This document shows positions 20,864 through 29,232 of a stretch of DNA of 51,053 bases, piece after piece. This DNA is from an uncultured Chryseobacterium sp. Lineage in GTDB: Bacteria; Bacteroidota; Bacteroidia; Flavobacteriales; Weeksellaceae. A program made the translations under genes and the position numbers. A model generated the notes under the pieces. That model had not been told where the DNA came from, ran no database searches, and saw nothing but the letters and a program-made list of their open reading frames with translations. The number at the start of each line of letters is the position of its first letter. Position 1 is the stretch's first letter. Location of the stretch: the NCBI GenBank assembly GCA_913778085.1, contig CAJYXJ010000067.1, positions 1 to 51,053 of the forward strand, in the 5' to 3' direction.

Positions 20864-20897
20864 TTTGTTTTTCATATTAAAAAAATATATACATTTG
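20864..20897 (+). promoter_or_regulatory. trp operon promoter
   Basis: -33 element TTTG at 20864-20867 and -7 element TACATTTG (TAnnTTTG) at 20890-20897, 22 bases apart. Transcription is predicted to begin at about 20901-20904, at or next to the leader-peptide ATG (20902). Confidence 0.7.
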
Positions 20898-20901
20898 TAC
20901 C

Positions 20902-20979
20902 ATGTTTAGTAACAGCAATAATATTTGGTGGTGGCTTCCAAACTCTTCGTCGGGTCTGAGGCTGTTGTCGTGCTGTTAA
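20902..20979 (+). CDS. trpL: Tryptophan operon leader peptide
   Basis: 25 codons: it starts MFSNSNNIWWWLPNSSSG and ends LRLLSCC. The three consecutive Trp codons (20926-20934) are the diagnostic feature of ribosome-mediated attenuation. A strong terminator lies 39 bases beyond the stop, and trpE follows at 21079. The ATG lies only about 5 bases beyond the -7 element, so the mRNA is probably leaderless or nearly so. A pairing that could prevent the terminator is 20948-20957 (CGTCGGGTCT) with 21018-21028 (AGACTTTGACG), ten pairs with one bulged base and two G-U pairs. Confidence 0.9.
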   Translation: MFSNSNNIWWWLPNSSSGLRLLSCC

Positions 20980-21017
20980 TCCATCTTAACGCATCAATAA
21001 TAAAACAATATACAAAG

Positions 21018-21050
21018 AGACTTTGACGGATACCGTTGAAGTCTTTTTTA
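21018..21050 (+). terminator. trp attenuator terminator
   Basis: 12-bp stem AGACTTTGACGG/CCGTTGAAGTCT with two G-U pairs and a 3-base loop, then TTTTTTATTT. It lies between the leader peptide and trpE, 29 bases before the trpE start. Tryptophan shortage is expected to stall the ribosome on the Trp codons and stop this hairpin forming. Confidence 0.9.
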
Positions 21051-21078: not shown

Positions 21079-22506
21079 ATGTTCAGTAAAAAAATAAAAG
21101 TAAAAACCGTTTCAAGAAAAACCCTGGGCGATCTCCGGACGCCAATGACCATTTATCTCCAGATCCGCGATCAGTTCAGGGATACGATCCTGCTGGAAAG
21201 CTCGGATTCCAAGAATATCGACAACAATTTTTCATTTATTGCCGTTAATGCCATTGCCGGAATCGAGATTAAAACCTTAACGGATTTTGAAGTGAAACTT
21301 CCCGGTCAGGAACCGGTAAAGCAATCCATCGGCGGACAGAACATTACTCAGATCCTGCAGGATTTTGCCCATGTGTTTGCGTGTGAAAATACAAGTGATC
21401 CGATTGAAAAAACGGCACAGAGCCTTTTCGGATATACAAGTTTTGAAGCTGTCCAGTTTTTTGAAAACCTGAACTTCAAGCTGCAGAGTCCTGAGGTGGA
21501 AATCCCCGTTCTACGGTACCGTCTGTATCAGTACGTTATTGCCATCAATCATTACAATGATGAAATGCACATCATCGAAAACCAGATGGAGGGCGTAAAA
21601 CCCGAACTTTACGTATTGGAAAGCTTAATCAAAAACCACAATTCCGTTATCTACCCTTTTGAAAAAGACGGCGGGGAAACGTCAAACATCACCGATGAGG
21701 AATACATCGACCTGGTAAAGACCGCCCAGAAGCACTGTATGCGGGGCGATGTCTTCCAGCTGGTTTTAAGCAGACGGTTTGAACAGAAATTCAGAGGAGA
21801 TGAATTCAACGTATACCGGGCTTTGAGGAACATCAATCCTTCACCTTACCTTTTCTTTTTCGACTACGGAAGTTATAAACTCTTCGGATCCAGTCCGGAA
21901 AGCCAGCTGATCATCAGAAATAACAAAGCCGTTATTCACCCGATTGCAGGAACTTTCAAAAGAACCGGACATCTCGAAACCGATCTTCAGTCTATTGAAG
22001 CCCTTAAAAATGATGAAAAGGAGAATGCAGAACACACCATGCTTGTAGATCTGGCCAGAAACGATCTGGGTAAACTCGGAAAAAACGTTACGGTAACCAA
22101 ATTAAAGGAAATCCAGCTTTTTTCCCACGTCATCCACATGGTCAGCGAAGTAACGGCCGATCTGGCAGAGCATACCAATCCTTTCGAAATGGTGGCCACT
22201 ACTTTCCCTCAGGGAACCTTAAGCGGGGCCCCGAAGCATAAAGCCTTACAGCTGATCGATAAATATGAGAAAGATTCCCGCGGCTATTACGGCGGCTGTA
22301 TCGGAATGATCGGACTGGACGGCGAATGTAACCAGGCCATTATGATCCGTACTTTTTTAAGCAAAAACAACACTTTATATTACCAAGCGGGTGCCGGACT
22401 GGTAGCAAAATCCAATTCTGAAAGTGAGCTTCAAGAAGTAAACAATAAGCTGAATGCGCTGAAAAAGGCTGTAGAAAAAGCAGAAAGACTGGTCGAAAAA
22501 TATTAA
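21079..22506 (+). CDS. trpE: Anthranilate synthase component I
   Basis: Converts chorismate and ammonia (from TrpG) to anthranilate, the first step of tryptophan synthesis. The N-terminal domain has the LLESSDSKN motif (about residues 36-44), whose LLES box contributes to tryptophan feedback binding. The C-terminal chorismate-binding domain has GDVFQLVLSRRF, PSPYLFFFDYG, GSSPESQL, HPIAGTFKRTG and TFPQGTLSGAPKHKAL. At 475 residues it is normal. First structural gene after the attenuator. Confidence 0.96.
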   Translation: MFSKKIKVKTVSRKTLGDLRTPMTIYLQIRDQFRDTILLESSDSKNIDNNFSFIAVNAIAGIEIKTLTDFEVKLPGQEPVKQSIGGQNITQILQDFAHVFACENTSDPIEKTAQSLFGYTSFEAVQFFENLNFKLQSPEVEIPVLRYRLYQYVIAINHYNDEMHIIENQMEGVKPELYVLESLIKNHNSVIYPFEKDGGETSNITDEEYIDLVKTAQKHCMRGDVFQLVLSRRFEQKFRGDEFNVYRALRNINPSPYLFFFDYGSYKLFGSSPESQLIIRNNKAVIHPIAGTFKRTGHLETDLQSIEALKNDEKENAEHTMLVDLARNDLGKLGKNVTVTKLKEIQLFSHVIHMVSEVTADLAEHTNPFEMVATTFPQGTLSGAPKHKALQLIDKYEKDSRGYYGGCIGMIGLDGECNQAIMIRTFLSKNNTLYYQAGAGLVAKSNSESELQEVNNKLNALKKAVEKAERLVEKY

Positions 22507-22520
22507 TAAAGAAAAACAAA

Positions 22521-23132
22521 ATGACACATACCGAACCATCAACCGTTAATCAACTGTCAACCGCCAAAATCCTTGTATTTGATAACTACGACAGCTTTAC
22601 GTATAACCTTGTCCAGATGATTGAAAGAATTCTTGATACCAAAGTGGATGTGGTGAAGAATGACCAGATTACTTTAGCCGAAATCAATCAGTACGATAAA
22701 ATCGTGCTTTCTCCCGGCCCCGGAATTCCCGAAGAAGCAGGTATTTTACTGGATGTCATTAAGGAATACGCACCTACCAAAAGTATCCTCGGAGTATGCC
22801 TTGGCCAGCAGGCCATTGCAGAGGCTTTCGGAGGGAGTCTGATCAATCTTACCGAAATTTATCATGGGGTCGCCACACCTGCAGATTTTGTAAAGGATGA
22901 TACGAAAATTTTCAGAAACCTTTCCAGTGGGATTGATGTCGGACGATACCACAGCTGGGTGGTGGACCGTGAAGATTTCCCGGAAGAACTGGAAATTACC
23001 GCTGTCGACAAAGACGGCATGATCATGGCTCTCCAGCATAAAACTTACGATGTGCACGGGGTCCAGTTTCACCCGGAAAGCATTCTTACCCCGGAAGGAG
23101 AAGTGATTATCCGAAATTTTCTGTTAGCTTAA
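22521..23132 (+). CDS. trpG: Anthranilate synthase glutamine amidotransferase component
   Basis: Supplies ammonia to TrpE from glutamine. Class I glutamine amidotransferase fold with the nucleophile in GVCLGQQAIAEAFGG and the His-Glu pair in VQFHPES. The family core begins at KILVFDNYDSFTYNL. The 15 or so residues before it (MTHTEPSTVNQLST) look like a translated low-complexity repeat (see findings). It starts 14 bases after trpE. Confidence 0.95.
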   Translation: MTHTEPSTVNQLSTAKILVFDNYDSFTYNLVQMIERILDTKVDVVKNDQITLAEINQYDKIVLSPGPGIPEEAGILLDVIKEYAPTKSILGVCLGQQAIAEAFGGSLINLTEIYHGVATPADFVKDDTKIFRNLSSGIDVGRYHSWVVDREDFPEELEITAVDKDGMIMALQHKTYDVHGVQFHPESILTPEGEVIIRNFLLA

Positions 23133-23141
23133 AAAATACTT

Positions 23142-24131
23142 ATGAAAGAAATTCTTCAATACCTTTTCAATCATCATACGCTTTCCAAATCGCAGGCGAA
23201 GGCGATCATGATTGAAATTGCTCAAAATAAATTCAATGCTACGGAAGTAACAGCCTTTGTTACTGTCTTCCTGATGCGGAATATAACCCTGCCGGAACTG
23301 GAAGGTTTCCGCGATGCCCTTTTGCAGATGGCCATTCCGGTAAACATCGAGGCAGAAGATGCCATCGATATCGTAGGAACCGGTGGTGACGGCAAAAACA
23401 CCATTAATATCTCTACCCTGGCGAGCTTTGTGGTAGCCGGCGCCGGACAAAAAGTAACAAAACACGGCAATTACGGTGCTTCCACCATCACAGGATCATC
23501 CAATGTATTGGAAGCGCTGGGGTATGAATTTAAAAACAGTACTGAACAACTTCAGGAAGAACTGGCTAAAGCCAATATCTGCTTTCTGCACGCTCCGTAT
23601 TTTCATCCGGCCCTGCAATCCGTCGGTGCGCTCAGAAAATCATTGGGACTGAGAACTTTTTTTAATCTCCTGGGCCCGTTGGTAAATCCTGCGAAGCCAC
23701 AGTTTTCAGTGATTGGTGTTTACAACCTTGAAATTGCACGGATTTATCAGTATCTTCTGCAAAAAGACCGTCGTAATTTTACACTGGTTCACGGAATGGA
23801 CGGATATGACGAAATCAGCCTCACAGGTGATAGCAAGATCATCAGTAAAAAGGGCGAAGCTGTTTATACCACCGAAGATCTGGGATTTGCAGCAATAACA
23901 CCCGATCGTATTCAGGCCGCCGGTACGCCGGAGGAAACGGCAAAGATTTTCAGAAATATCCTTGAAGGCAAGGGAACGGACGAACAGAATTCCGTGGTGC
24001 TGGCGAATGCAGCGGTTGCCTTATTCTATACCGGTAAATTCGGAAATTATGAAGACTGCCTATCTATGGCAAAAGATAGTTTACACGGCGGAAAGGCTTT
24101 GCAAAGCCTAAAATTATTGTTGAATGAATAA
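23142..24131 (+). CDS. trpD: Anthranilate phosphoribosyltransferase
   Basis: Adds phosphoribose from PRPP to anthranilate. Contains the signature GTGGDG in DIVGTGGDGKNTINIS (about residue 80), KHGNYGASTITGSSNVLEALG and RTFFNLLGPLVNPA. 329 residues, normal length. The gap to trpG is nine bases, and the gene is not fused to trpG as it is in enteric bacteria. Confidence 0.96.
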   Translation: MKEILQYLFNHHTLSKSQAKAIMIEIAQNKFNATEVTAFVTVFLMRNITLPELEGFRDALLQMAIPVNIEAEDAIDIVGTGGDGKNTINISTLASFVVAGAGQKVTKHGNYGASTITGSSNVLEALGYEFKNSTEQLQEELAKANICFLHAPYFHPALQSVGALRKSLGLRTFFNLLGPLVNPAKPQFSVIGVYNLEIARIYQYLLQKDRRNFTLVHGMDGYDEISLTGDSKIISKKGEAVYTTEDLGFAAITPDRIQAAGTPEETAKIFRNILEGKGTDEQNSVVLANAAVALFYTGKFGNYEDCLSMAKDSLHGGKALQSLKLLLNE

Positions 24132-24141
24132 ATGAGCGGTT

Positions 24142-24921
24142 ATGAATATTTTAGATACAATCATCCATAGAAAAAAAGAAGAACTGGCCTTTTCGAAATC
24201 AAAAGTTTCCGTTCAGCAGCTTAAAGATTCTGAATTCTTCGGGAGAAAAAGTTATTCATTAAAAGAAACCTTAGGAACCAAAAGCGGAGTTATTGCTGAA
24301 TTTAAAAGGCAATCTCCATCCAAAGGGATCATCAACGATAAAATTTCACCGGTGGAAGTGGTTTCTGCCTATGAACATTCCGGAGCCAGTGCAGTTTCCA
24401 TTCTGACGGACCGGGATTTTTTCGGCGGAAGTTTTGATGATATTCTAAGCGTGAGAAATCATATTGACATTCCTGTCTTGCGAAAGGATTTTATGGTGGA
24501 CGAATACCAGTTTTATGAAGCGAAATCTATCGGCGCTGATGTCATTTTGCTGATCGCGGCCTGTCTTTCCCCTCAGCAGGTGCAGGAATTCACGGCACTT
24601 GCTCATGAACTCGGACTGGAGGTACTACTTGAAATCCATTCGGAAGAAGAATTAAAACATATTAACCCGGATATTAATTTTGTTGGTATCAACAACAGGA
24701 ACCTGAAAGATTTCAAAGTAGATTTGCAGCATTCCGTTGATCTGAAAAACAAGCTACCCGAAGGAATTTTATCTGTTGCCGAAAGCGGTATTTACAGCGA
24801 AGAAGATTTTAAATACCTCAAAGAAAAGGGCTTTGACGGATTTTTAATGGGCGAATATTTCATGAAAGATGAAAATCCGGGAAATAAATTCAGGGAATTT
24901 ATTTCTCGTGTAACCGTATAA
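24142..24921 (+). CDS. trpC: Indole-3-glycerol phosphate synthase
   Basis: Ring closure from CdRP to indole-3-glycerol phosphate. TIM barrel with IAEFKRQSPSKG (catalytic Lys), VLRKDFMVDEYQ, FVGINNRNLKDF and VAESGIYSEED. 259 residues. It is monofunctional, with TrpF encoded separately 18 bases downstream. Confidence 0.96.
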   Translation: MNILDTIIHRKKEELAFSKSKVSVQQLKDSEFFGRKSYSLKETLGTKSGVIAEFKRQSPSKGIINDKISPVEVVSAYEHSGASAVSILTDRDFFGGSFDDILSVRNHIDIPVLRKDFMVDEYQFYEAKSIGADVILLIAACLSPQQVQEFTALAHELGLEVLLEIHSEEELKHINPDINFVGINNRNLKDFKVDLQHSVDLKNKLPEGILSVAESGIYSEEDFKYLKEKGFDGFLMGEYFMKDENPGNKFREFISRVTV

Positions 24922-24939
24922 CAATTTATCAATATAACA

Positions 24940-25611
24940 ATGATAGAAAGCCAGAAACCATCAGCCATTAACCAACAGCCGAAGCTTAAAGTTTGCGGAT
25001 TAACACAGCCTGAACAGATTCAGGAACTGATTTTGATGGAAACTGATTTCCTTGGTTTTATTTTCTATGAAAAATCGCCTCGGTACGCGCTTAATCATCT
25101 GACATTAGAAGAAATTTCAATGACCGGCCATCAGGCAAAGGTTGGGGTTTTTGTAAACGAAAGCCCGGAAAAGATAGCAGAAACAGCAGATAAAGCAAAA
25201 CTGGATTTTATTCAGCCGCACGGCGATGAAGATCAAAATTTTATTGCTGAACTAAGAAAAATGGTCAATCCTAAAACCGGAATCATTAAAGTCATCAGAA
25301 TAGGAGCTCAAACCCCGGATGAATTACAGAGAATAATCAATAATTGTGGGTCAATGGTCAATTATCTGTTGTTTGATACCGACTCTAAAGCGTTCGGAGG
25401 AACCGGGAAAACCTTTGACTGGGATCTACTGAATAAAATAGAAATCCCTCTCCCTTATTTTTTAAGCGGCGGAATTTCGGAAGAAAATATTGATGGCATC
25501 AGAATGTTGATTCAAAAGCCTTTTGCTGTAGATATCAATTCTAAATTTGAAACTGGACCGGGTATGAAGGACGTAGAAAAAATAAAAAATTTTAAAAATA
25601 AGATCAGATAA
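24940..25611 (+). CDS. trpF: Phosphoribosylanthranilate isomerase
   Basis: Isomerises N-(5-phosphoribosyl)anthranilate to CdRP. TIM barrel starting at the conserved LKVCGLTQPEQ (catalytic Cys), then FLGFIFYEKSPRY, DFIQPHGDE, LFDTDSKAFGGTGKTFDW and YFLSGGISEENI. The first 14 residues (MIESQKPSAINQQP) are extra and seem to derive from a repeat. Last gene before the REP/RAYT insertion that separates it from trpB. Confidence 0.95.
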   Translation: MIESQKPSAINQQPKLKVCGLTQPEQIQELILMETDFLGFIFYEKSPRYALNHLTLEEISMTGHQAKVGVFVNESPEKIAETADKAKLDFIQPHGDEDQNFIAELRKMVNPKTGIIKVIRIGAQTPDELQRIINNCGSMVNYLLFDTDSKAFGGTGKTFDWDLLNKIEIPLPYFLSGGISEENIDGIRMLIQKPFAVDINSKFETGPGMKDVEKIKNFKNKIR

Positions 25612-25613
25612 AA

Positions 25614-25670
25614 AAGTTGCCGAAGGGACGGCTTACCACAGAATCGGATTGAATCCGGTTCAATCCGATC
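25614..25670 (+). repeat. REP-like element 1
   Basis: Starts GTTGCCGAAGGGACGGCTTA and continues with AGAATCGGATTGAATCCGGTT, so it has two adjacent palindromes (the first degenerate here). It begins right after the trpF stop codon and forms an inverted pair with the copy at 25725-25776. Confidence 0.7.
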
Positions 25671-25724
25671 ATTTTAAAAACAGTACCAATGAAGATTTAT
25701 TAATGAGGATACGGAAATGCTAAT

Positions 25725-25776
25725 AAAATCGGATTTACATCCGATTCTGAACTAAATCGTCCCTTTGGGACTGTAG
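25725..25776 (-). repeat. REP-like element 2 (inverted)
   Basis: On the minus strand it reads AGTCCCAAAGGGACGATTTA and then AGAATCGGATGTAAATCCGA, that is, the same two palindromes as element 1 in opposite direction. Elements 1 and 2 are arranged like a BIME (paired REP) of enteric bacteria. Between them lies GAAGATTTATTAATGAGG, which resembles part of the adjacent transposase gene. Confidence 0.7.
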
Positions 25777-25903
25777 GAATGGTAAACTTTCTAACTTTTA
25801 GCAAAAATAAAAAATGAGTTACAAAAACGGATTAAAACAGACCACAGAGAATTCAGAAGCGTATCTGTTTGTAAGATGTGATATCCGAATATCGAACATC
25901 ACA

Positions 25904-25955
25904 GAAAGTCCCGAAGGGACGGCTTAGAATAGAATCGGATAGAATCCGATTCAGG
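25904..25955 (+). repeat. REP-like element 3
   Basis: AGTCCCGAAGGGACGGCTTA followed by AGAATCGGATAGAATCCGAT. It is the cleanest copy: GTCCC-GAA-GGGAC is a perfect palindrome and AATCGGAT-AG-AATCCGATT nearly so. It lies 30 bases before the RAYT start. Confidence 0.75.
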
Positions 25956-25984
25956 TCATCACTATAAACCAAAAAACACAAAAG

Positions 25985-26436
25985 ATGTCTCAATCATTAG
26001 TTAAAAATTATGTCCATATTGTTTTCAGTACAAAAACCGCGAGGATTTTATTGATGAAAACGTAGAGCAAGAGCTATTTTCCTATATTGCGACAGTTTGT
26101 AAAGATTTCGAAAGCATTGCTTTACAGATCGGAGGAACGGATAATCACACCCATATTCTCTGTTTGCTGTCGAAGAAAATAGCTTTGATGGAACTTGTAC
26201 AGGAGATTAAAGCGCACTCTTCAAAATGGATAAAAACAAAAGGTAAAAAATACAAAACCTTTTTCTGGCAGGATGGCTATGGTGCCTTTTCGGTAAATGA
26301 AGAAAATGTTTATGCAGTTATTCATTATATTAAAAACCAAAGACAACATCATGAACAGATTCATTATAAGGATGAACTAATAGGGATTCTCCAGAAGTAC
26401 AGAATGGATTATGATGAAAAGTATATTTGGGATTGA
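25985..26436 (+). pseudogene. REP-associated tyrosine transposase (IS200-like Y1), frameshifted
   Basis: The reading frame starts MSQSLVKNYVHIVFSTK (25985) and continues one frame over with EDFIDENVEQELFSYI to YIWD (stop 26434-26436). One A missing from the run at 26032-26036 explains the shift: adding one A restores the usual FSTKNREDFIDE. The HUH motif is intact (DNHTHIL), as are the probable catalytic Tyr region (YAVIHYIKNQRQHH) and the family's WQDGYGAFSV. RAYTs move REP elements, and such repeats flank this gene. Either a recent inactivation or a sequencing error in a homopolymer; all else looks functional. Confidence 0.85.
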
Positions 26437-26653
26437 TGATGAGAATCGGATTGGCATGCAATTTAATGAATCATCTTAAAACACAAAATCAGGGAAGATT
26501 TATTGATGAAAACATAGGTAATGAGAAGCATCTTTATAAACAAGATGGGATCTCCAGATATGGAAGATCACAGGAAGTTCCGAAGGGGCTGCTTACTACA
26601 GCATCAGATAGAATCGGATTTACCAATCATTATAAAAAAACACAAAAACAACA
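26437..26653 (+). repeat. REP remnants and a transposase-like fragment
   Basis: GAGAATCGGATTGG (26440) is a partial repeat. 26479-26515 (containing GAAGATTTATTGATGAAAAC) resembles the stretch of the RAYT gene at 26041-26060. 26573-26622 is a fourth, diverged REP copy (AGTTCCGAAGGGGCTGCTTA then AGAATCGGATTT). Together they suggest more than one insertion or copying event. Confidence 0.6.
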
Positions 26654-27217
26654 ATGAAAAAACATTATTCAAGGAAGCTGAAGCTTTTAAAATTCAGAAA
26701 ACGTGATTTTAATGGCATAGAAAGAAAAATATACCGGGTTTTATTTCCCCGCAAATTTAAAAATGAAAAAATACGATTGCTGCATGATTTTGTCTCAAAA
26801 AACGATGGTAACACAGATTATTGGTACCCGGAAGGTTTATTAGGCGATTTTATCGGAATCATTAAAGACTTTTCTCCGGAGGACATCGATTATTTCTTTG
26901 AAACCATCAGCCTATGGGACAGTTATCATTTGGTAGTGATTGCCGATAAACTGCTCGAAAATTATGTAAAGGAAAGTATGAAGTATGATTTCGGAATAGT
27001 GTACTGCAGAATTTTTTGTCGGTATGAAAAATTTGATTCTTATTATCTGATTGATAATCTTGAAATGGCTATTAACAGGTATGATTCCAAACCGGATATC
27101 ATGCTGCTTATCGACCTTACATCTAAAATACACCTGTTATTTAACCATGAAATAATCGGAAAACAACAATTGGATTATAACCTTTTATTAATAAAAAAAT
27201 TACAAAATGAATTATAA
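26654..27217 (+). CDS. Hypothetical protein inside the trp operon
   Basis: 187 residues, Lys/Arg-rich at the N-terminus ([19 protein letters not shown]), mostly helical, with no signal peptide or membrane segment. Visible segments: [22 protein letters not shown] and [20 protein letters not shown]. Its stop overlaps the trpB start by 11 bases, so the two are probably translationally coupled. I do not recognise the family. The helical, acidic C-terminal part resembles immunity or adaptor-like proteins in general character, but that is not evidence for such a role. Its base composition is more A/T-rich than the trp genes, suggesting it arrived with the REP/RAYT segment. Confidence 0.7.
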
Positions 27218-28412
27218 AAACCCGGATGCAAACGGATATTACGGAGAATTCGGAGGGGCATTTATCCCCGAGATGCTGTATCCGAATGTAGAGGAACTGC
27301 AGAAAAGCTATATCGATATTATTGAATCTGAAAATTTTCAGCAGGAATATCAGGAACTTCTGAAAAATTACGTGGGGCGTGCCACACCTTTGTATTTTTC
27401 TAGGAATTTAAGCCGGAAATACAATACCAAAATTTACCTGAAACGGGAGGACCTCAACCATACGGGAGCCCATAAGATCAATAATGCCTTGGGACAGGTT
27501 TTGCTGGCGAAACGGCTTGGGAAAAACAGGATTATTGCAGAAACCGGTGCCGGCCAGCACGGCGTGGCCACCGCAACGGCCTGTGCCCTGCTGGGGCTGG
27601 AATGTATTGTCTATATGGGAGAAATCGATATTCAGCGGCAGGCGCCGAATGTAGCACGTATGAAGATGCTTGGGGCAACCGTTGTACCTGCCACGTCAGG
27701 CTCAAAAACCCTGAAAGATGCGGTGAATGAAGCTTTACGCGACTGGATCAACAATCCGGTGACGACGCATTATGTGATCGGAAGTGTGGTCGGCCCGCAT
27801 CCTTTTCCGGATCTGGTGGCAAGATTTCAGAGCATCATTTCAAAGGAAATCAAGGAACAGCTTTTGGAGCAGGCCGGGCGGGAAAATCCGGATTACGTCA
27901 TTGCCTGTGTCGGCGGCGGAAGCAATGCGGCGGGAACCTTTTACCATTTCGTGAATGAGGAAGACGTGAAAATCATCGCTGCTGAAGCCGGAGGTTTTGG
28001 CGTGGATTCCGGGAAATCGGCGGCTACGACCTTCCTTGGAACATTAGGCGTTTTACATGGCAGCAAAAGCCTGGTGATGCAGACTTCGGACGGACAGGTC
28101 ATCGAACCCCACTCCATTTCCGCAGGACTGGATTATCCGGGAATCGGACCGTTCCACGCGAATCTGTTCAGAGAGAAACGCGCGGAATTTTTCAGTATTA
28201 CGGATGAGGAAGCGTTAAAATCGGCCTTTGAACTTACTAAGTTGGAAGGCATCATCCCGGCCCTGGAAAGTGCCCATGCCCTCGCTGTTTTAGATAAAAA
28301 AGAATTTAACGAAAACGATATTGTGGTCATCTGCCTGAGCGGCCGTGGAGACAAGGATATGGAAACGTATCTGAAAAGGCTGGATGCAGGAAGCGGGAAG
28401 ATGGAAGATTAA
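27207..28412 (+). CDS. trpB: Tryptophan synthase beta chain
   Basis: Condenses indole with serine, using PLP. The PLP lysine is in [19 protein letters not shown], the substrate segment is [16 protein letters not shown], and the phosphate-binding loop is [12 protein letters not shown]. 401 residues, normal. The trpB start overlaps the end of the preceding unknown gene, and trpA follows 40 bases downstream. Confidence 0.97.
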
Positions 28413-28452: not shown

Positions 28453-29232
28453 ATGAACGATAATAACATCCAGCACCCAGCTTCCAGCTTCCAGCCTCAA
28501 AAAAAACTAAACATCTACTTCACCGCAGGAATCCCGCAACTGGAAGATACTGCCGGGATTATAAGACTGATCCAGGATTCGGGAGCCGACATGATGGAAA
28601 TCGGGATGCCGTATTCGGATCCGGTAGCGGACGGACCGGTCATCCAGCAGGCCCATGAACGGGCCCTGCAAAACGGAATGACCATCGAAAAACTGTTTGC
28701 CCAACTGAAATCCGTTAAAAATGAAATTAGCGTTCCTGTGATTTTAATGGGATACATCAATCCCGTTCTGAGCTTCGGCTTTGAGAATTTCTGCCGGGAA
28801 TGCTCGGAGAGCGGGGTTTCAGGGTTAATTATTCCTGATTTGCCCCCGATCGAATTTGAGAAGAAATACCGTGACGTTTTAAATCAATACCAACTGAATT
28901 TCACCTTTCTGGTCACTCCGGAAACTTCAGATGAAAGAATTTTGTACCTGGATTCTTTGAGCTCAGGATTTCTGTACGCCGTCAGTTCTTCGTCCACCAC
29001 AGGGAATGAAAATACGGTTCTGAAAAACGAAAGCTATCTTTCAAAACTGGCAGCACTTCCGCTGAAAAATCCGGTGATGATCGGTTTCGGCATCAAGTCC
29101 AGGGAAGATTTTGAAAATGTGACCGAAAAAGCAGACGGCGGAATTATCGGAACTGCGTTTGTGAACATCCTTTTGCAGAATGAAGACTGGAAGAACAAAG
29201 CTGCTGATTTCATCCGTTCCATTAACGGGTAA
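28453..29232 (+). CDS. trpA: Tryptophan synthase alpha chain
   Basis: Cleaves indole-3-glycerol phosphate to indole. TIM barrel with the catalytic Glu and Asp in MMEIGMPYSDPVADGPVIQQA, then GYINPVLSFG and FGIKSRED. 259 residues. The first 17 residues (MNDNNIQHPASSFQPQK) look like a repeat-derived extension before the true start of the fold (LNIYFTAGIPQ). Confidence 0.96.
   Translation: MNDNNIQHPASSFQPQKKLNIYFTAGIPQLEDTAGIIRLIQDSGADMMEIGMPYSDPVADGPVIQQAHERALQNGMTIEKLFAQLKSVKNEISVPVILMGYINPVLSFGFENFCRECSESGVSGLIIPDLPPIEFEKKYRDVLNQYQLNFTFLVTPETSDERILYLDSLSSGFLYAVSSSSTTGNENTVLKNESYLSKLAALPLKNPVMIGFGIKSREDFENVTEKADGGIIGTAFVNILLQNEDWKNKAADFIRSING

Follow-up and report, generated by a model that had tools for sequence, protein, structure and literature searches.

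What controls the tryptophan operon on this 51,053-nt stretch of DNA from an uncultured Chryseobacterium sp. (hereafter the window), and does the short reading frame with three consecutive tryptophan codons in front of trpE take part in that control? The operon lies on the + strand, where Pfam matches identify trpE (anthranilate synthase component I, 21079–22506), trpG (22521–23132), trpD (23142–24131), trpC (24142–24921), trpF (24940–25611) and, after an interruption, trpB (27207–28412) and trpA (28453–29232). A contig search showed that the nearest relatives of the window's trpE are those of Chryseobacterium, with up to 97% identity. The original prediction, which read the region upstream of trpE as an attenuator, is supported by the conservation of leader, antiterminator and terminator and by compensatory changes in three helices, and on this comparative evidence we consider ribosome-mediated transcription attenuation of the trp operon to be very probable.

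The 25-codon WWW leader that had been predicted upstream of trpE is real. Its reading frame occupies 20902–20979 of the + strand, encodes MFSNSNNIWWWLPNSSSGLRLLSCC and is kept in near loci, in the family and in the order and class; the three consecutive Trp codons, which by sequence and comparison are the expected stall site, lie at 20926–20934, and the TAA stop codon (20977–20979) follows 51 nt past the first of them. Within the window TGGTGGTGG occurs once, both strands counted, and WWW is found in only one of 719 ATG-initiated small ORFs of 8–40 aa, while 100 Markov-1 random windows of like dinucleotide content yielded three small ORFs with WWW in total. A pattern search of the window's own genome (TTTG, ATG, TGGTGG) returned 14 places against 10 in the reversed control, and only the known site was informative.

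All 23 near loci (L001–L023, of which 22 are titled Chryseobacterium and one, L005, Weeksellaceae bacterium) carry the WWW leader together with a terminator, which excludes the absence of the leader in close relatives that had been named as grounds for giving up the proposal. The WWW leader is likewise present in 29/29 further loci of the family (L028–L056). Sixty more family loci were our own choice among the 88 family genomes that gave a trpE match but no automatic locus, and in 51 of these a WW, WWW or WCW leader stands before trpE; 30 of the 148 family genomes gave no trpE match at the cut-off. Left out of the leader counts are L024, a 3′ fragment of trpE, and two paralogues, L026 and L027; the window's own locus bears the number L025. 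A terminator hairpin follows every one of the 104 family leaders, the window's included, although these amount to 99 distinct cores and some species are thus repeated.

The nine family loci in which no leader ORF precedes trpE (L098, L100, L102, L106–L110 and L112, with L110 struck out as a false MWW match) all belong to a single genus, g17 (L098–L112, L207–L212). A TrpB search revealed that trpB directly precedes trpE in all six g17 genomes checked, and in each of the six a W-rich leader with a terminator is found upstream of trpB, starting with ATG in two cases and with GTG in four, the latter read by eye. The leader is thus found before the gene that is now first and tracks the start of the operon. 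With trpE no longer in first place, this genus provides a natural test that ties the leader to the operon start.

Outside the family, we chose 40 loci from elsewhere in the order and 40 from elsewhere in the class, most genera or families being represented by one or a few loci. A script identified a W-rich leader ORF in 71 of these 80 loci and a terminator hairpin in 69 of the 71, and the Trp motif in the 69 is WWW in 53, WW in 13 and WCW, WLW and WRW in one each. Nine loci had no leader: L144, L145, L147 and L148, from genomes of 300–600 kb; L170, L187 and L188, whose upstream letters by eye resemble the end of trpB; L182, with a W-poor look-alike, NWCC, also seen by eye; and L164.

The intrinsic terminator of the window (21014–21049, + strand) consists of a stem at 21014–21048, with 16 pairs, a loop of 3 and an energy of −17.7 kcal/mol, and a T run at 21044–21049. 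It had been placed at 21018–21050, and is present but slightly longer than that. Terminator-like sites number two in the window against 0.9 ± 1.1 in shuffles, i.e. such a site is not rare in itself. The proposed antiterminator, 20948–20957 with 21018–21028, is confirmed with its ten pairs, T21022 being bulged out. Its first strand (segment 2, 20948–20957) is made of leader codons, and its second strand (segment 3, 21018–21028) is also part of the terminator 5′ arm. Comparison and folding add a protector hairpin, formed by segments 1 and 2 at 20933–20963 of the + strand, in which a conserved core pairs 20939–20945 with 20952–20958; in the window an outer stem, 20933–20938 with 20958–20963, is predicted to replace the outermost core pairs. 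The protector reaches −9.4 kcal/mol with this outer stem and −3.5 kcal/mol as the minimal core. Against simple shuffles, the protector fold has a mean z of −1.3 in 27 representatives, two of them positive, and of −0.8 in the window. The best antiterminator duplex of the window (−13.6 kcal/mol) is also unremarkable by itself when compared with shuffles of the leader strand (z −1.4), and its support comes from the comparison between genera.

Covariation, which the original prediction had put forward as a check, was counted in an alignment of 27 same-type cores picked from the sampled loci, with three mutually exclusive helices and 500 shuffles, and compensatory changes were found in protector, antiterminator and terminator alike. 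Paired cells make up 93.1% of the protector (3 pairs and 8 cells with both sides changed), 91.4% of the antiterminator (4 pairs, 16 cells) and 99.0% of the terminator (4 pairs, 11 cells). In all three helices none of the 500 shuffles reached the observed values for paired cells, for cells changed on both sides or for the covariation score; such scores are inflated by relatedness, and the helices were picked after the sequences had been viewed. Shuffles were not surpassed by the number of pairs with both sides changed in the protector (76/500) or the antiterminator (190/500), nor by the count of further pair types in the terminator (475/500). When the helices were slid out of register, 14–54% of cells were paired; the protector slid by +1 gave 4 pairs and 11 further types, against 3 and 11 in the true register.

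The antiterminator was also assessed by exchanging strands between genera. Leader strands paired with their own terminators at −14.2 kcal/mol and with those of other genera at −11.4 kcal/mol (27 representatives; 0/20,000 permutations), the own terminator being better than the swapped mean in 25/27, with L070 and L111 as the exceptions. For 69 loci of the order and class the corresponding values are −15.8 and −12.1 kcal/mol (0/5,000 permutations); this test left out 11 of the 80 loci, namely the nine without a leader ORF and L179 and L181, where no hairpin was found. For the leader strand of the window, its own terminator comes only 13th among 26. In genera g21 and g10, as in many loci elsewhere in the order, the partner of segment 2 is instead the terminator loop together with the first part of the 3′ arm. 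Judged by comparison, the locus has the antiterminator expected of a trp attenuator, one whose formation would exclude the terminator.

Where would the transcript of such a leader begin? A promoter had been part of the original prediction. A sigma-70 scan returned nothing promoter-like on the + strand of the window, and was discarded as directed at the wrong promoter type for Bacteroidota, but a Bacteroidota −7 box, TACATTTG (TAnnTTTG), is present at 20890–20897 and ends 4 nt upstream of the ATG. The TTG at 20865–20867, 22 nt upstream of the −7 box, is a candidate −33 element of a Bacteroidota sigma-A promoter, matching the −33 consensus. In the Flavobacterium psychrophilum transcriptome report, the sigma-A box TAnnTTTG is located at −12 to −5 (PMC9723704). 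Since the −7 box of the window ends 4 nt before the ATG, +1 would fall on the A of the leader ATG (20902), and from this box spacing we predict a leaderless trp transcript.

A similar spacing is found in 89 of the 104 family leaders, where the gap from the −7 box to the ATG is 4–7 nt (4 nt in 52, 5 in 32, 6 in 4 and 7 in 1); in the remaining 15 the gap is larger or the box was not found. Among sampled loci the box lies 4–7 nt from the ATG in 10/36 from the rest of the order, where 14/36 have it at 16–20 nt as compared with 4 nt in the window, and in 9/33 from the rest of the class, counts that are biased towards leaderlessness because the smallest distance was used for loci with several candidate starts. 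Leaderless mRNAs are uncommon elsewhere: they make up 5.5% in F. psychrophilum (PMC9723704), and in B. thetaiotaomicron 5′ UTRs of less than 10 nt account for about 3.7% (PMC7366714). The window's leader would be a compact example of attenuation in bacteria independent of Shine-Dalgarno initiation. If its transcript truly lacks a 5′ UTR, transcription, the loading of ribosomes and attenuation would all begin at one nucleotide.

From these parts we infer a start site, a stall, a direction of response and a division of work between ribosome occupancy and the protector, as follows. Transcription would begin at or beside the A of the leader ATG, and the ribosome would load at the extreme 5′ end. 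With charged tRNA-Trp in short supply, the ribosome would stall on WWW and sit on the left arm of the protector, leaving segment 2 free; segments 2 and 3 would then pair, the terminator would be blocked and trpE would be transcribed. Given enough tryptophan, the ribosome would read through segment 2 to the stop codon, and its passage, with the protector re-forming behind it, would keep segment 2 from segment 3, upon which the terminator would halt transcription.

The geometry of the leader bears directly on the second half of this scheme. Segment 2 begins about 20 nt past the first Trp codon and, given the size of the ribosome footprint, lies just outside a stalled ribosome. In the window it also lies 20 nt upstream of the leader stop codon, and the earlier worry that a ribosome at the stop would not cover it directly is a fair one. 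The stop is at +51 from the first Trp codon in 54/104 family leaders, and at +27 to +39 in 34/104, a position from which a stop-bound ribosome would cover segment 2.

To follow the competing pairings, the window RNA was folded at equilibrium in six ribosome states, with segment 3 out and the terminator 3′ arm not yet made. The probability of the antiterminator was about 0.86–0.89 with a stalled ribosome, 0.86–0.89 with the ribosome at the stop (0.64–0.79 with a wider block) and up to 0.87 with no ribosome. The sole state separated from the others was that with the ribosome over segment 2, at 0.00, and the complete terminator had a probability of 0.97 in all six modelled states. Equilibrium thus does not explain the switch, and protector kinetics, ribosome occupancy or both must act. 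The other pairing suspected in the original prediction is probably the protector hairpin within the leader ORF, which in these foldings is insufficient at equilibrium. A simple block of segment 2 by the footprint of the stop-bound ribosome was set aside as too simple for Chryseobacterium, given the stop at +51 and the folding.

The same switch could operate with no real role for the protector, if the ribosome were to mask segment 2 during the synthesis of segment 3 and the six tail codons served as a timer. That the antiterminator is abolished in folding only by a ribosome over segment 2 speaks for this arrangement, as do the 34 family leaders with a closer stop codon, in which the ribosome footprint would reach segment 2. 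The protector itself, however, is highly paired, has changed in a compensatory manner and is found again in other genera with unrelated sequence, and would be left without obvious use; moreover, the stop of the window is at +51. We therefore hold a protector-free switch to be possible but somewhat doubtful, and favour attenuation in which the protector takes part.

The tail of the peptide raises a different alternative. The codons for N-S-S-S-G-L are base-identical across 43 leaders of the window's genus, whereas the six tail codons before the stop vary mostly synonymously, with a pN/pS of 0.22 over 22 distinct segments, small numbers from related leaders that hint at a constraint on the peptide. 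If the peptide matters in this way, the nascent chain might sense free tryptophan in the ribosome, as in TnaC, in place of codons sensing charged tRNA. The peptide is, however, wholly different between genera while the Trp codons are retained, and with a TnaC-like arrest tryptophan would raise expression, the wrong sense for a biosynthetic operon, so that we regard this as very improbable. A chance ORF upstream of an ordinary terminator, without any regulation, is hardly credible in spite of the many small ORFs of the window and the occurrence of chance terminator-like sites, being contradicted by conservation in the family and class, by the shift of the leader to trpB where the gene order differs, and by covariation.

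Codon-sensing attenuation of this kind can be compared with several known systems. E. coli trpL likewise combines Trp codons in a short leader ORF with protector, antiterminator and terminator built from segments 1 to 4, but it has a 5′ UTR with a Shine-Dalgarno sequence, and its stop-bound ribosome covers segment 2. In the window, unlike this textbook case, both the protector and the first antiterminator strand are leader codons, segment 2 ends well before the stop codon and the transcript is predicted to be leaderless. A closer parallel in that last respect is trpL (rnTrpL) of Sinorhizobium meliloti, which is leaderless, its RNA starting with the leader ATG (PMC7298713). It belongs to another phylum and is unrelated in sequence, and its start has been mapped whereas that of the window is predicted. 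Action in trans has been reported for rnTrpL and peTrpL of Sinorhizobium. In a speculative joint reading, which we consider unlikely as a whole, the locus would be a leaderless attenuator loaded without Shine-Dalgarno sequence at a 5′-terminal AUG, with protector and segment 2 made of leader codons; the genus tail, selected for its amino acids, would time the ribosome or give the peptide a second role, and the terminated RNA of about 150 nt would be a small leaderless mRNA possibly acting in trans.

The view that attenuation is far less described in Bacteroidota does not hold for trp, which has already been described there through RF01692 and in F. psychrophilum. Bacteroid-trp RNA (Rfam RF01692; Weinberg et al. 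2010, PMC2864571) resembles the window in being a Trp-rich leader RNA before Bacteroidota trp genes; in the alignments it has a hairpin around and behind the Trp codons, and the model ends in the terminator 5′ arm. A Bacteroid-Trp element is noted upstream of the F. psychrophilum trp operon in PMC6414381, and the 2021 transcriptome of that species gives clues to leader-peptide attenuation before amino-acid operons (PMC9723704), with candidates that share phylum and promoter type with the window. Our search for a study of a Chryseobacterium trp leader found none among open-licence papers, which is weak evidence of absence.

The RF01692 covariance model matched the window neither at the gathering score nor at E 5, and the idea that the window is a plain member of RF01692 was dismissed. 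The model matched 0/20 near loci and 3/20 loci of the window's family, with hits in five of ten family loci at E up to 1; 16/20 loci sampled elsewhere in the order, where 19 of the 20 belong to family f3 and one to f4; and 0/20 among the 20 tried of the 40 class loci. The window is therefore not filed there, although other loci in its family connect it with RF01692. Codon-sensing trp attenuation would appear to be far commoner in the sampled Bacteroidia than the lone Rfam model shows. In L093 and L058, the first ~20 positions of the RF01692 model align to sequence containing the −7 box, and the 5′ end of the model may thus be promoter DNA and not RNA.

Some further observations concern the surroundings of these operons. 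Between trpF and trpB, the window (25600–26650) contains an ORF matching the IS200-like Y1 transposase family PF01797; the match spans positions 61–121 of 121, apparently the C-terminal half only. The ORF is flanked by repeats of the GAAGGGACGGCTTA and AATCGGAT motifs, some of them inverted, and judging by these features the interruption looks like an old insertion of the RAYT/REP type. A 187-aa ORF at 26654–27217, overlapping the start of trpB, had no Pfam match at E 0.001. In the 600-kb genomes of L144 and L145 (family f14), a terminator-like hairpin seen by eye is kept before trpE without a Trp leader ORF, and is perhaps a decayed attenuator. Finally, L137 and L149, from genus g34 in family f2 of the order, carry tandem WWW leader ORFs before trpE, each with its own terminator-like hairpin, and thus apparently two attenuators in series.
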